Source: Candidatus Levyibacteriota bacterium
GTDB taxonomy: Bacteria > Patescibacteriota > Microgenomatia > Levybacterales > UBA12049
Length of the DNA: 33,972 nt
Assembly (NCBI GenBank): GCA_016204535.1
Contig: JACQKL010000009.1
Location: 1-33,972 of the forward strand
Reading direction: 5' to 3'
This document shows, one piece after another, positions 6,679 to 26,944 of the stretch; position 1 is the stretch's first letter; each line of letters starts with the position of its first letter. A model generated the notes under the pieces. The model did no database searches. It had not been told where the DNA came from and saw nothing but the letters and a program-made list of their open reading frames with translations. Made by a program: the position numbers and the translations under genes.

Positions 6679-7885
6679 AGTTTTGTATGTTGGAAAAGCT
6701 AAAAATCTCAAAAAAAGAGTTAATTCCTATTTTGCCAAATATGCCAACTTAGGTCATAAAACCAGTGTTCTAGTTTCCAAAATTAGCAAAATAAAAACTA
6801 TTATTGTTGATTCCGAAATCCAAGCCTTTCTCCTTGAAGCAAATTTCATTAAAAAGTACAAACCAAAATATAATATTAAACTCACTGACGATAAAGCTTA
6901 TCCGTTAATACGAGTTACCATTAAAGACTCATATCCGAAAATATTAATTGCTAGAAGAACTTCAGATAAAAATTCTTTGTATTTTGGCCCTTTCCCCAAC
7001 TCTACCAAAGAACTTAGAATCACGTTGAAAATAATAAGGAAAATCTTTCCCTTCCAGTCGGTACCAAACCATCCCAAAAAAATATGCTTATATAATCATC
7101 TAGGTCTTTGTCCATGTCCGCCTGTTTTTGATTCTCCTGAGTTTAAAAAAGAATATCGAAAAAGTATAAAACACATAATTGATTTTCTAAATGGAAAGAG
7201 TAAAAAAATTATTAAAGATCTAATAAAAGAAAGAGATTTACTAAGTAGTCAAGAACAATTTGAAAAAGCTAATGTTTTACAAAGTAAAATATCGGCAATT
7301 GAACTAATTACTGGTCCTTATTACGCCAGATTTGATTCTGACTTAAGCCCTAATCTTTTGGAGGATTTAAGAGCAAAAGAAACCGAAGATCTAATGAGAA
7401 TTTTAAATGAAAACAAAGTTGCTGTTAAAATTCTTAGAAGAATTGAGTGTTTTGACATCTCCAATGTATCCGGCAAAAACGCAACAGGCTCTATGGTAGT
7501 ATTTACTAATGGAGAAAAAAATAGCTCTCAATACAGAAAATTTAAAATTAAAACCCTAAATTCCCCAAATGATTTTGCGATGATGGAAGAAGTTCTCCAA
7601 AGGAGAATTCAGCACAAAGAATGGCCTTATCCTGATTTGCTAATAGTTGATGGCGGAAAAGGACAGGTGTCTTCTGCTTTAAAAGTTTTAAGAGAGATTA
7701 AAACTCATATTCCAATTATTGGTCTTGCAAAAAAAGAAGAGACAATAATTTCCTCTGACTTTAAAGAAATAATTCTGTCCAAAAATTCCGATGCGCTGAA
7801 ACTTGTAATGAGAATTCGCGACGAAGCCCACCGCTTTGCCATCACCTATCATCGAAAGCTAAGAGGTAAATCCTTCTTACTCTGA
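6602..7885 (+). CDS. uvrC: Excinuclease ABC subunit C, short form apparently lacking the C-terminal HhH domain
   Basis: KPGIYLFLDKKNRVLYVGKAKNLKKRVNSYF (GIY-YIG), UVR motif, CFDISNVSG...LLIVDGGKGQ endonuclease domain; AGGAGG at 6588-6593 is 8 nt before TTG 6602. Confidence 0.88.
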   Translation: MLASLPYYQWLSTKPGIYLFLDKKNRVLYVGKAKNLKKRVNSYFAKYANLGHKTSVLVSKISKIKTIIVDSEIQAFLLEANFIKKYKPKYNIKLTDDKAYPLIRVTIKDSYPKILIARRTSDKNSLYFGPFPNSTKELRITLKIIRKIFPFQSVPNHPKKICLYNHLGLCPCPPVFDSPEFKKEYRKSIKHIIDFLNGKSKKIIKDLIKERDLLSSQEQFEKANVLQSKISAIELITGPYYARFDSDLSPNLLEDLRAKETEDLMRILNENKVAVKILRRIECFDISNVSGKNATGSMVVFTNGEKNSSQYRKFKIKTLNSPNDFAMMEEVLQRRIQHKEWPYPDLLIVDGGKGQVSSALKVLREIKTHIPIIGLAKKEETIISSDFKEIILSKNSDALKLVMRIRDEAHRFAITYHRKLRGKSFLL

Positions 7886-7921
7886 CACCCTCCAGGTGTC
7901 GCTTCACAGGTGTCGCCTCAC
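7884..7921. repeat. REP-like palindrome (GACACCCTCCAGGTGTC) plus adjacent half-repeat AGGTGTCGCCTC
   Basis: Perfect 6-bp stem, and a 14-nt near-perfect tandem AGGTGTCGCTTCAC/AGGTGTCGCCTCAC; same core at 23180, 26127 and 26860. Confidence 0.8.
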
Positions 7922-17510: not shown

Positions 17511-17535
17511 GCAGTCACCTTCCAGGTCTCAAGCT
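17511..17535. repeat. Degenerate copy of the REP-like palindrome (GTCACCTTCCAGGTCTCAAGCTAA)
   Basis: Matches the 23180-23202 copy apart from a few substitutions, including the CAAGCTAA flank. Confidence 0.6.
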
Positions 17536-22838: not shown

Positions 22839-22857
22839 AATCCTTATATTCAAACCT

Positions 22858-22903
22858 AATCAACTCCCTGTGTTGATTCATATCTGAACATCGGGTATCC
22901 GAT
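22858..22903. terminator. Two intergenic hairpins between convergent genes, possible bidirectional terminator
   Basis: AATCAAC-TCCCTGT-GTTGATT 22858-22878; ATCGG-GTAT-CCGAT 22890-22903. Confidence 0.45.
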
Positions 22904-22925: not shown

Positions 22926-24164
22926 TCAAATAGACTCGTGGGCGAGCTTTATTCTTTCATATTTATCAGCCAGATAACCATTTGGAACAGTTGTCAATTC
23001 ATCAGCGTATAGTAAAGAACCATTGCGGATAGTGTGGTTACCAAATTTTTCATTAATTTCATCTATTATTTTTTGTACTTTTTCTTTTTTATTATTTATA
23101 TCAAACAAGGAAAGCGGCGTATTTACCGAATCTTCTAAATTCCCAACCCATACGCTTATTTGCCTTACATAATTGAGGCGACACCTTCCAGGTGTCAAGC
23201 TAATACACATATCAAAAATCTCTTTTCCCGTATCGAAATATGCTTCGTATGTTTTTCTTGCATGAAAATTATCTGAACCCCTTAAGGATAATCCTACAGT
23301 TCTTGCTTTTTTACTTAACCTTCTTAGTTTTATGCTAACTTCTTCGCAGAGTTCAAAGATGTTTTGCAAAACTACACTTTTATTGTATTCATTTTTGGGC
23401 AAACAATAATTTCTGCCAACCGATTTTACCGCCGGAGCAGTGGTAAAAAAGTTTAAAGAATCTGAATCTATTCCCAAACCTATGTTTTTCAGAAAATGCC
23501 CTTCGGAATTTTTAAATTCTGAGATTAGCAAAGATAGGGAAGCATTTCGCAACTGCAAAAGAGTATAAATACCAATTTTATTAAGGCGTAATTTAATTCT
23601 TTCTCCAATTCCACACATATCAGTTAGTTTTGCCTGAAAATAAACCAATTCAAGATTATCTTTGGTAATTTCAAATACTCCATCCGGCTTATTAATGCCT
23701 GATGCCAGTTTGGCCAACAATCTATTGTGAGAAATGCCGACCGAAACCGTAATATATTCACCAATTTCTTCTCTTATTTCTTGTTTCAGTTTTATTATTA
23801 AGTTATATACACCATTAAACAGATGGGAAGTAGCCGTAACGTCCATAAATACCTCGTCAATTGAAAAAAGCTCAACAAAAGGGGAAAAATTTTTACAGAT
23901 ATTTAGAAACTTTTTTGATATTTCAAAGTACTTAACAAAATCTGCTTTAACTAAATTAAGAGTTGGGCAAACTTGTAATGCTTCATAAGTGCGAGCGCCG
24001 GTTTTAATGCCTATTTTTTTGGCTTCTCGACTTGAGGCAATAATACAGGTTCGTCCATTTGCAGCTGTCACTCCAAGAGGTTTGTTTCTAAGCTTTGGAT
24101 TATATTGCTGCTCAACGCTGGCAAAGAACGAATCAAAGTCAATGTGAAGAATTGTTTTCTCCAT
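22926..24164 (-). CDS. dinB: Y-family DNA polymerase (DinB/ImpB family) containing an in-frame REP-derived segment
   Basis: ILHIDFDSFFASVEQQYNPKLRNKPLGV, FSIDEVFMDVT, VGISHNRLLAKLASGINKPDG. Confidence 0.93.
   Translation of the reverse strand: MEKTILHIDFDSFFASVEQQYNPKLRNKPLGVTAANGRTCIIASSREAKKIGIKTGARTYEALQVCPTLNLVKADFVKYFEISKKFLNICKNFSPFVELFSIDEVFMDVTATSHLFNGVYNLIIKLKQEIREEIGEYITVSVGISHNRLLAKLASGINKPDGVFEITKDNLELVYFQAKLTDMCGIGERIKLRLNKIGIYTLLQLRNASLSLLISEFKNSEGHFLKNIGLGIDSDSLNFFTTAPAVKSVGRNYCLPKNEYNKSVVLQNIFELCEEVSIKLRRLSKKARTVGLSLRGSDNFHARKTYEAYFDTGKEIFDMCISLTPGRCRLNYVRQISVWVGNLEDSVNTPLSLFDINNKKEKVQKIIDEINEKFGNHTIRNGSLLYADELTTVPNGYLADKYERIKLAHESI
23175..23202. repeat. REP-like palindrome GAGGCGACACCTTCCAGGTGTCAAGCTA inside dinB
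   Basis: 7-bp stem GACACCT-TCC-AGGTGTC; first 20 nt identical to the copy at 26122-26141. Confidence 0.85.
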
Positions 24165-24295: not shown

Positions 24296-26119
24296 ATGGA
24301 TTCATTTAAGGCTGAAAAGATAAGAAATATCGCAGTAATTGCCCATGTTGATCATGGAAAAACAACTTTAGTTGATTTCATGCTTAAGCAGTTTAAGGCA
24401 TTTCGTGAAAATGAGGCAGAAATGCAGCAAACCACAATTTTAGATTCCAATCCGCTGGAAAGAGAACGGGGAATTACCATTCTGGCTAAAAACACTGCTA
24501 TTAACTATCAAAATTACAGAATTAATATTATTGATACTCCCGGCCATGCCGATTTTTCCGGAGAGGTGGAGAGAACATTAAACATGGCGGACGGAGCACT
24601 TTTAATTATTGACGCCTTAGAAGGCCCTATGCCGCAAACAAAATTTGTGCTTAAAAAGGCTCTAGAGATGGGTCTTAAGATAATTGTTATTATAAATAAA
24701 ATAGACAAAAAGCTCGCAAATATTAAAGATTCTTTTGAAAAAACCAATGATCTTTTTTTGGAGCTTGCCACTGATACAGATCAATTGAACTTTCCTGTTC
24801 TATATGCGATAGGTCGCGAAGGAAAAGCAGCAGAAAAGCTCGAGGACGTACAAAACTCTACCAGTTTGGATGCAATAATGCAAGTAATTGTAAAATATAT
24901 TCCAGCCCCTCGTGTTGAAAAAGGCCCTTTTAAGATGCTTATAGCCGCACTTGATTACGATTCCCACAAAGGAAAACACGTCATTGGAAAAATAAGAAGC
25001 GGAAGTCTAGAAAAAGGACAAGCAGTTGTTTTAATCAAAGCCGACAATAAACCAATACCAGCAAAAATTGAGAATATTTTTATAAACCGTGGGCTTAAAA
25101 AAGAAGAGGTTGAGGAAGTAACTGCAGGCGAGATAATTGAAATAACTGGAGTTAACAATGTTTCGATCGGCGATACGCTTACCGACCCGACCAATCCGAT
25201 TGCGCTTCCTAGAATTAATATCGAAGATCCAACAATTAAGATTGCTATTTTTGCCAATACTTCCCCCTTTGCCGGAAAAGAGGGAAAATTTTCCAACTCA
25301 AGACAAGTCTATGAAAGATTGCAAAAAGAACTAGAAACAAACATAAGTCTTAAGCTAGAAGTCAGAGATGACAAATTTATAGTTTCAGGCCGTGGAGAAC
25401 TGCATTTATCTATTCTAATTGAAACCCTAAGACGGGAAGGTTATGAATTTCAGGTTGAGAGACCTGAGGTTATTACAAAGGTTATTGATGGAGTAGAGAT
25501 GGAGCCGGTTGAAGACCTAATTGTAGATGTTCCGCAAGAATTTCAAGGAATTGTCACCAGAGAACTTGGAGAAAGAAGGGGAAAGATGACAAATATGACA
25601 ATCGACGGTAAAGACAACATCAGATTTGAATATAAAATTCCTTCAAAAGCTCTTCTTGGCATAAGAAATGTTTTACTGACTAACACAAAAGGAACTGCTG
25701 TAATTAACACTATGTTTGATAAATATGAACCACTGACTCCTCCTCTTCCAAAAATTAGAAACGGGGTTTTGATTGCCTCAGAGCCCGGAGTTGCCTTAAC
25801 TTTTGGACTGCAAAATGCGCAAGGACGAGGAATAACTTTTATAGATCCCGGAACTCCTGTTTATGAAGGAATGATTATCGGGCTTAACTCCCGAGGAGAA
25901 GACATTGAGATAAATGTAGCCAAAGGAAAACATTTAACTAACATGAGAGCTTCAACCAGTGATATTGCAATTGCCCTAACTCCGCCTCTAAAAATGAGTC
26001 TTGAGCAATATTTGGATTTCTTGGAAGACGATGAGCTTCTGGAGGTTACGCCCAAGAATTTAAGACTTCGCAAAAAGCTTCTCACCAAACTTGATCGCGT
26101 CAGAGCCGCGAGAGTATAA
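24296..26119 (+). CDS. typA: Translational GTPase TypA/BipA
   Basis: IRNIAVIAHVDHGKTTLVDFMLKQ, NPLERERGITILAKNTAI, DTPGHADFSGEVER, TypA-like C-terminus; start taken at MDSFKAEK. Confidence 0.96.
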   Translation: MDSFKAEKIRNIAVIAHVDHGKTTLVDFMLKQFKAFRENEAEMQQTTILDSNPLERERGITILAKNTAINYQNYRINIIDTPGHADFSGEVERTLNMADGALLIIDALEGPMPQTKFVLKKALEMGLKIIVIINKIDKKLANIKDSFEKTNDLFLELATDTDQLNFPVLYAIGREGKAAEKLEDVQNSTSLDAIMQVIVKYIPAPRVEKGPFKMLIAALDYDSHKGKHVIGKIRSGSLEKGQAVVLIKADNKPIPAKIENIFINRGLKKEEVEEVTAGEIIEITGVNNVSIGDTLTDPTNPIALPRINIEDPTIKIAIFANTSPFAGKEGKFSNSRQVYERLQKELETNISLKLEVRDDKFIVSGRGELHLSILIETLRREGYEFQVERPEVITKVIDGVEMEPVEDLIVDVPQEFQGIVTRELGERRGKMTNMTIDGKDNIRFEYKIPSKALLGIRNVLLTNTKGTAVINTMFDKYEPLTPPLPKIRNGVLIASEPGVALTFGLQNAQGRGITFIDPGTPVYEGMIIGLNSRGEDIEINVAKGKHLTNMRASTSDIAIALTPPLKMSLEQYLDFLEDDELLEVTPKNLRLRKKLLTKLDRVRAARV

Positions 26120-26120
26120 T
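26085..26120. repeat. Left copy of 36-bp imperfect direct repeat flanking the RAYT region
   Basis: CCAAACTTGATCGCGTCAGAGCCGCGAGAGTATAAT versus 26909-26944: 32 of 36 identical. Confidence 0.85.
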
Positions 26121-26121
26121 C

Positions 26122-26160
26122 GAGGCGACACCTTCCAGGTGCAATACGCAGACACCTTCT
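26122..26160. repeat. REP-like palindrome at the 3' side of the RAYT gene
   Basis: GAGGCGACACCTTCCAGGTG plus GACACCTTCT; GACACCTT 26151-26158 is the reverse complement of AAGGTGTC 26842-26849. Confidence 0.8.
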
Positions 26161-26162
26161 TT

Positions 26163-26816
26163 TTATGCCATCTCTTCATGTATTGCCCGCTCCAAAAGTT
26201 TTATTGACCTACCATAATCTTCTTGATCTAAAACAAACTTCTCATATGCTTCGGGTGAGGAAAATCCATCCATAATATAATTTTTGTGACAAAATCCCTT
26301 TTTAATTCCCAAATACTCCAAATAAGAAGAGTAAGTATATTTCCTAAGGTCTTTAGTAAGATAATCTATTAAGGGATTTAGATGAATATATCTAGACACA
26401 TGAATCAATTGCTCATCACTTTCTATTCTTACGGCCTTGAAACTTCCTTGAAAAAGCGGACCAACTCTTTTATATCGAGTATTAAAATATTTTGTATAGC
26501 TATTGCTTAATTTACTCAAGAACATTGTTATCCCGTTATCATTGACTTGTTTAAGAAGTAAATGAAAATGATTTGGCATCAAACAATAGCTAACTACTTC
26601 AGCGAAAAGCGGTCCGGAGAAAGTGTTTTTATCATCAACCTCCATCCTGCCCCTAAAAGAAAAACGCACATGCTGATCTCTTGCTCTGTAATAATTAAGA
26701 GAATCTGTAAAGCGACTGTAATCTCTTTTGTCGATAAATGTTGTTCTCTTCTCAACGCCGCGGTTGAACACGTGGTAAAACTGGTTATTTGCAAAAACTG
26801 TTTGTTGATAAGACAT
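26163..26816 (-). CDS. REP-associated IS200/Y1-like tyrosine transposase (RAYT)
   Basis: FYHVFNRGVEKRTTF, VSYCLMPNHFHLLLKQ (HxH), YTKYFNTRYKRVGPLFQGSFKAVRIESDEQLIHVSRYIHLNP. Confidence 0.93.
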   Translation of the reverse strand: MSYQQTVFANNQFYHVFNRGVEKRTTFIDKRDYSRFTDSLNYYRARDQHVRFSFRGRMEVDDKNTFSGPLFAEVVSYCLMPNHFHLLLKQVNDNGITMFLSKLSNSYTKYFNTRYKRVGPLFQGSFKAVRIESDEQLIHVSRYIHLNPLIDYLTKDLRKYTYSSYLEYLGIKKGFCHKNYIMDGFSSPEAYEKFVLDQEDYGRSIKLLERAIHEEMA

Positions 26817-26841
26817 AAGCTTAGTATGAAGTTTTTTAAAT

Positions 26842-26877
26842 AAGGTGTCAATAGCTGTTCACCCTCCAGGTGTCAAG
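26842..26877. repeat. REP-like palindrome at the 5' side of the RAYT gene
   Basis: AAGGTGTCAATAGCTGTTCACCCTCCAGGTGTCAAG. Confidence 0.75.
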
Positions 26878-26908
26878 TTGGAAAATAAAATACTAAATCC
26901 CTTAATCT

Positions 26909-26944
26909 CCAAACTTGATCACCTAAGCGCCGCGAGAGTATAAT
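26909..26944 (+). promoter_or_regulatory. Right copy of the 36-bp repeat; promoter TTGATC-N18-TATAAT 7 nt before ATG 26952
   Basis: -35 TTGATC 26915-26920, -10 TATAAT 26939-26944. Confidence 0.6.

Follow-up and report, generated by a model that had tools for sequence, protein, structure and literature searches.

RAYT (TnpA-REP) proteins accompanied by GTAG-type REPs and REPINs are known from E. coli, Pseudomonas and Stenotrophomonas (PMC2817692, PMC3116915), and RAYT genes have been reported to occur more often in large genomes (PMC6006769). One division of the family, Quentin subclass 2.1 or Bertels group 1, is reported to lack REPs (PMC6006769), which is a published survey result rather than a strict definition; the inverted repeats of subclass 2.1 have been classed separately, as TIRYT. 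These elements, also termed TIRtrons, consist of a RAYT-like gene and long inverted repeats, some of them self-complementary and moderately repeated, and many TIRYT belong to subclass 2.1 (PMC3733652). Within the open-access literature, a scope that leaves out subscription papers and preprints, no paper contained both 'RAYT' and 'Patescibacteria'.

We analysed a whole stretch of 33,972 nucleotides (the window) from a genome that is small, as a first-pass annotation of the window had supposed, and that was examined as a fragmented, 83%-complete assembly of 605 kb in 47 contigs; going by its relatives, it probably belongs to the Microgenomates, near Daviesbacteria. It is highly probable that this Patescibacteria/Microgenomates genome contains a RAYT with a cognate REP family, here called REP-A. 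The features of the window are as follows.

26163 to 26816, minus strand: RAYT gene, encoding a Y1 HUH transposase of 217 aa (H83-F84-H85; Y143 the predicted catalytic residue)
26122 to 26157, plus strand: REP-A unit on the 3' side of the gene, with foot GAGGC (26122-26126), hairpin GACACCTTCCAGGTGCA (26127-26143) and arm GACACCT (26151-26157)
26843 to 26879, minus strand: inverted REP-A unit on the 5' side, with foot (26875-26879), hairpin (26858-26874) and arm GACACCT on the minus strand (26843-26849)
26823 to 26851, minus strand: predicted RAYT promoter, with -35 TTGACA (26846-26851), a 17-nt spacer and -10 CATACT (26823-26828)
7884 to 7920, no strand assigned: REP-A hairpin with an additional foot-arm module, which overlaps the stop codon of uvrC (pattern match, copy alignment)
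17514 to 17530, no strand assigned: degenerate REP-A hairpin, intergenic (pattern match)
23175 to 23201, no strand assigned: double-foot REP-A hairpin, in frame in dinB (DNA polymerase IV), which folds well as ssDNA

The ORF is intact and contains both HVFNRG and CLMPNHFHLL, and its identification as a RAYT is borne out by the agreement of these motifs with a domain match and with the predicted fold. Pfam Y1_Tnp matched the protein over the family cut-off (E=5.6e-8), and NCBIfam REP_Tyr_transpos matched with E=2.6e-12 and 46.8 bits, a score which does not reach the curated cut-off of 80 and by which the protein is a diverged member. Residues H83, F84, H85 and Y143 were invariant in an alignment of 67 sequences. 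The best solved-structure match of an AlphaFold2 model (pLDDT 93.6) was 4er8, E. coli TnpA-REP in complex with a REP hairpin (E=3.2e-7), followed by IS200/IS605 transposases; a PDB sequence search gave chance viral polymerase matches only, and a search of anti-phage families gave no match. The HUH and Y motifs are present as NHFH and as YIHLNP, with its Y---NP signature, and together with FQ and SS they make up all four motifs listed for subclass 2.1 (NH[YF]H, FQ, Y[IV]HLNP, SS; Table 1 of PMC6006769). By motif, and not by tree, the protein agrees with Quentin subclass 2.1 (Bertels group 1); the trait of having no REP-like sequences beside the gene is not shared, as REP-like units flank it.

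The Y1 HUH fold, subterminal hairpins at both ends and a likely ssDNA chemistry are features in common with IS200/IS605, and the locus might be read as an ordinary insertion sequence of that family with terminal hairpins. We consider this very improbable, because the tyrosine motif is YIHLNP instead of Y---Q, the genome's three Y1 genes share only 33-44% identity and there are no near-identical gene copies, and it is the short units that are dispersed and not the gene. The RAYT gene is present once only, and its behaviour is not that of an insertion sequence.

Alignment of the copies defines REP-A as a compound unit composed of a foot, a 17-nt hairpin of the form GACACCT-NNN-AGGTGNA, about 7 nt and an arm, GACACCT. 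The RAYT gene lies between two inverted units with their arms pointing inward. The bracketing of the gene by cognate palindromes proposed in the first-pass annotation is confirmed, as is the exact inverted pair GACACCTT (26151-26158) and AAGGTGTC (26842-26849). Beyond this locus we found full units, bare hairpins with feet at both ends and foot-arm modules in tandem. The feet are GAGGC, AGCTT, AGCCT and similar, and the GT[AG]G tetranucleotide foot of canonical REPs was absent from those inspected; the REP-A system is not a canonical GTAG REP system. The dinB copy folds clearly as ssDNA (z=-3.2), the two bracketing hairpins weakly (z of -1.1 to -1.9).

Similar palindromes had been noticed elsewhere in the window, and copies were indeed located at 7884, 17514 and 23180; at up to 3 mismatches the window has 6 matches where 0.02 are expected, with one palindrome entering the count from both strands. 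Across the genome the same threshold gave 14 distinct hairpin places versus none for a reversed-pattern control, and their presence on six contigs besides the window's own refutes an absence of the palindromes from the rest of the genome. Coding sequence makes up about 87% of the genome, yet 10 of the 14 places are intergenic, several copies lying close behind stop codons; the other four hairpins are in frame within three conserved genes, carA, a murT-like gene and dinB. Separately, intergenic DNA on contigs C27, C46 and others contains repeats of the AGAATTCAGAATTC type, whose 12-mer AGAATTCAGAAT is present 15 times.

The genome's three Y1 genes each have different flanking palindromes. In a tree each of the three RAYTs falls in a different clade, and two of the three are neighbours of RAYTs from other candidate phyla, which suggests either transfer or old paralogy. 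The second RAYT, on contig C35 (L015 1270-2060), has on its two sides identical copies of TAGCTTCACAAGGCGTCCCCTTGCGAAGCTACTTGCGAAGCTA in direct orientation, for which no clear dispersed copies were found, and a degenerate copy of REP-C, the palindrome type cognate to the contig C4 RAYT, is situated at 22848-22895 of the window, between two genes upstream of dinB. In a matrix of ten RAYTs from three genomes (the host, the same-genus relative G003 and the single-contig, class-level relative G085), each RAYT had differing palindromes that were mostly confined to its own genome. The largest families comprised about 27, 15, 14 and 7 places and others had few or no extra copies, with almost no dispersed copies for REP-B of the host genome and for one RAYT of G003. 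Among 79 RAYT loci, which were picked by similarity to the window RAYT and thus represent its relatives and not all Y1 genes, a word of at least 10 nt was common to both flanks in 84%, compared with 8% of mismatched pairs, and the more alike two proteins were, the more their palindromes were shared (rho 0.28; maximum in permutations 0.10). About 7 REP-A-like matches were present in each of G003 and G004, though their RAYTs are only about 50% identical. The hairpin was absent from the same-genus genomes G001 and G002, the latter without a Y1 gene; the palindromes are therefore not equally present in a RAYT-less relative. Side observations on G085 concern its complete-looking 786-kb genome, in which contig C1 contains inverted, REPIN-like REP pairs with starts 39 bp apart (727596-727655, 735029-735088 and 742638-742697). 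One REP family of G085 has 9 of 12 places within 50 kb of its RAYT (P=1.3e-6); noncoding DNA is plentiful in this region too, and we therefore make no claim of spread in cis.

The position of several copies close after stop codons would also be expected if the palindromes were terminators or structured RNA elements that lie beside the gene by chance. This reading is barely credible: there is no T-run in the copies inspected, an Rfam search returned no family, some copies are in frame in genes, and cognate bracketing at most related loci, together with the cognate matrix, largely contradicts it.

By most of the tests applied, this is a RAYT/REP system. Set against the described systems, the RAYT and REP-A resemble RAYT/TnpA-REP in the HUH/Tyr protein of 4er8 fold, the single-copy gene flanked by inverted cognate palindromes, the dispersed and mostly intergenic copies and, in G085, the inverted REP pairs. 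They differ in the lack of a GTAG/GTGG foot, in an extra inner arm that doubles as a -35 box, and in having about 1-27 copies, rather than the usual >100, in a host genome of <1 Mb. A RAYT-like gene flanked by inverted repeats is shared with TIRYT/TIRtrons; unlike in these elements, the GGGGWSAS motif was not seen here, the hairpin-plus-arm design is consistent, and related loci are as a rule bracketed by matching palindromes.

The first-pass annotation suggested an active or recently active system, and comparison with relatives supports recency on the genus time scale only, through differences in the typA-RAYT junction and the dinB REP; any present activity is putative. In this genome the order after typA is the REP-RAYT-REP block, a repeat of 36 bp from the typA end, then a 2H-phosphoesterase gene and finally a HAD gene. 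Elsewhere typA is directly beside rarA (G002 and G003) or beside the HAD gene (G001), and the typA-RAYT junction was absent from all three relatives in which the typA end was read. Since the downstream neighbours differ as well, this is a changed junction and not a perfect empty site. The direct repeat of the typA 3' end flanks the block at 26085-26120 and 26909-26944 (32 of 36 positions identical), and its right copy includes TTGATC-18-TATAAT just before the ATG of the next gene and so may keep that gene's promoter. A search for a general target-site duplication at RAYT loci found none, a long direct repeat outside the REPs being seen at the window locus only. The dinB of G003 (75% identical) is without a REP, and because the site is of nearly the same length it may reflect replacement rather than clean insertion; carA and the murT-like gene had no orthologue in the part of G003 read, which left out most of contig C11. 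G003 also has a REP-A-like element just after uvrC (L018 1490-1540), at a different offset and with different neighbours from the window copy at 7884-7920, and these two elements may reflect shared ancestry or repeated insertion.

The inner arm on the 5' side overlaps the -35 box TTGACA, and the sequence here, TTGACACCT, reads TTGACA, 17 nt, CATACT, 6 nt and ATG. The RAYT promoter is predicted to be near-leaderless, with the 5' inner arm as its -35 box, both here and in many relatives. Among 86 RAYT genes, a promoter of the same placement with a score of at least 9 was found in 51%, versus 1.2% of shuffles, and an exact TTGACA in 42% versus 0.4%, the shuffles preserving base composition only. 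The arm matched its own 3' flank better than those of others (8.1 vs 5.6 nt), and TT preceded GACACC in 20 of 22 5' flanks versus 2 of 10 3' flanks, a bias that would follow from an arm which is a recognition site and acts as a -35 box only at the 5' end. If this arm serves the gene as its -35 box, a RAYT that occupies its own end would be expected to act as a repressor of its own gene as well, and the overlap suggests such autoregulation.

This coincidence of arm and -35 box in many relatives, together with single-copy genes and diverged paralogues, would also suit a RAYT that is now mainly a domesticated regulator, its hairpins and arms serving as operators and its dispersed palindromes controlling transcription or mRNA without being mobilised; a regulatory role of RAYTs and REPINs has been speculated on earlier (PMC8049555). 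We regard this as unlikely, given that the catalytic residues are invariant, that genome-private palindrome families imply spread within genomes, and that in-frame copies in genes are hard to explain as operators. With a RAYT that acts on its cognate REPs, the protein would bind single-stranded REP DNA at its hairpin, such as that on the lagging-strand template, and would read the foot and/or the arm. Cleavage through Y143 and rejoining of the ends would occasionally move or copy units to new sites; bare double-foot hairpins may be collapsed inverted units, and binding of the RAYT at its own 5' end would repress its transcription.

New in this system are the overlap of arm and -35 box, REP units without a GTAG foot in a subclass 2.1-type RAYT, and the finding that Y1 genes are common in related small genomes. 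Y1_Tnp genes were detected in 73 of 100 such genomes, although at least seven of the strongest matches look IS200-like and hence not all are RAYTs. A tentative wider proposal, which may well not hold, is that Patescibacteria have widespread, horizontally exchanged group-1-like RAYTs with compound REPs, one arm of which also serves a near-leaderless promoter as its -35 box, forming a self-limiting means of ssDNA editing in very small genomes. The presence of several RAYTs per streamlined genome, each with a private palindrome family, goes against the view that these genes are typical of large genomes. These loci also provide a natural set of co-varying protein and DNA pairs from which RAYT recognition may be learned, and the overlap of the recognition arm with the -35 box makes the proposed regulatory role of RAYTs and REPs directly testable.
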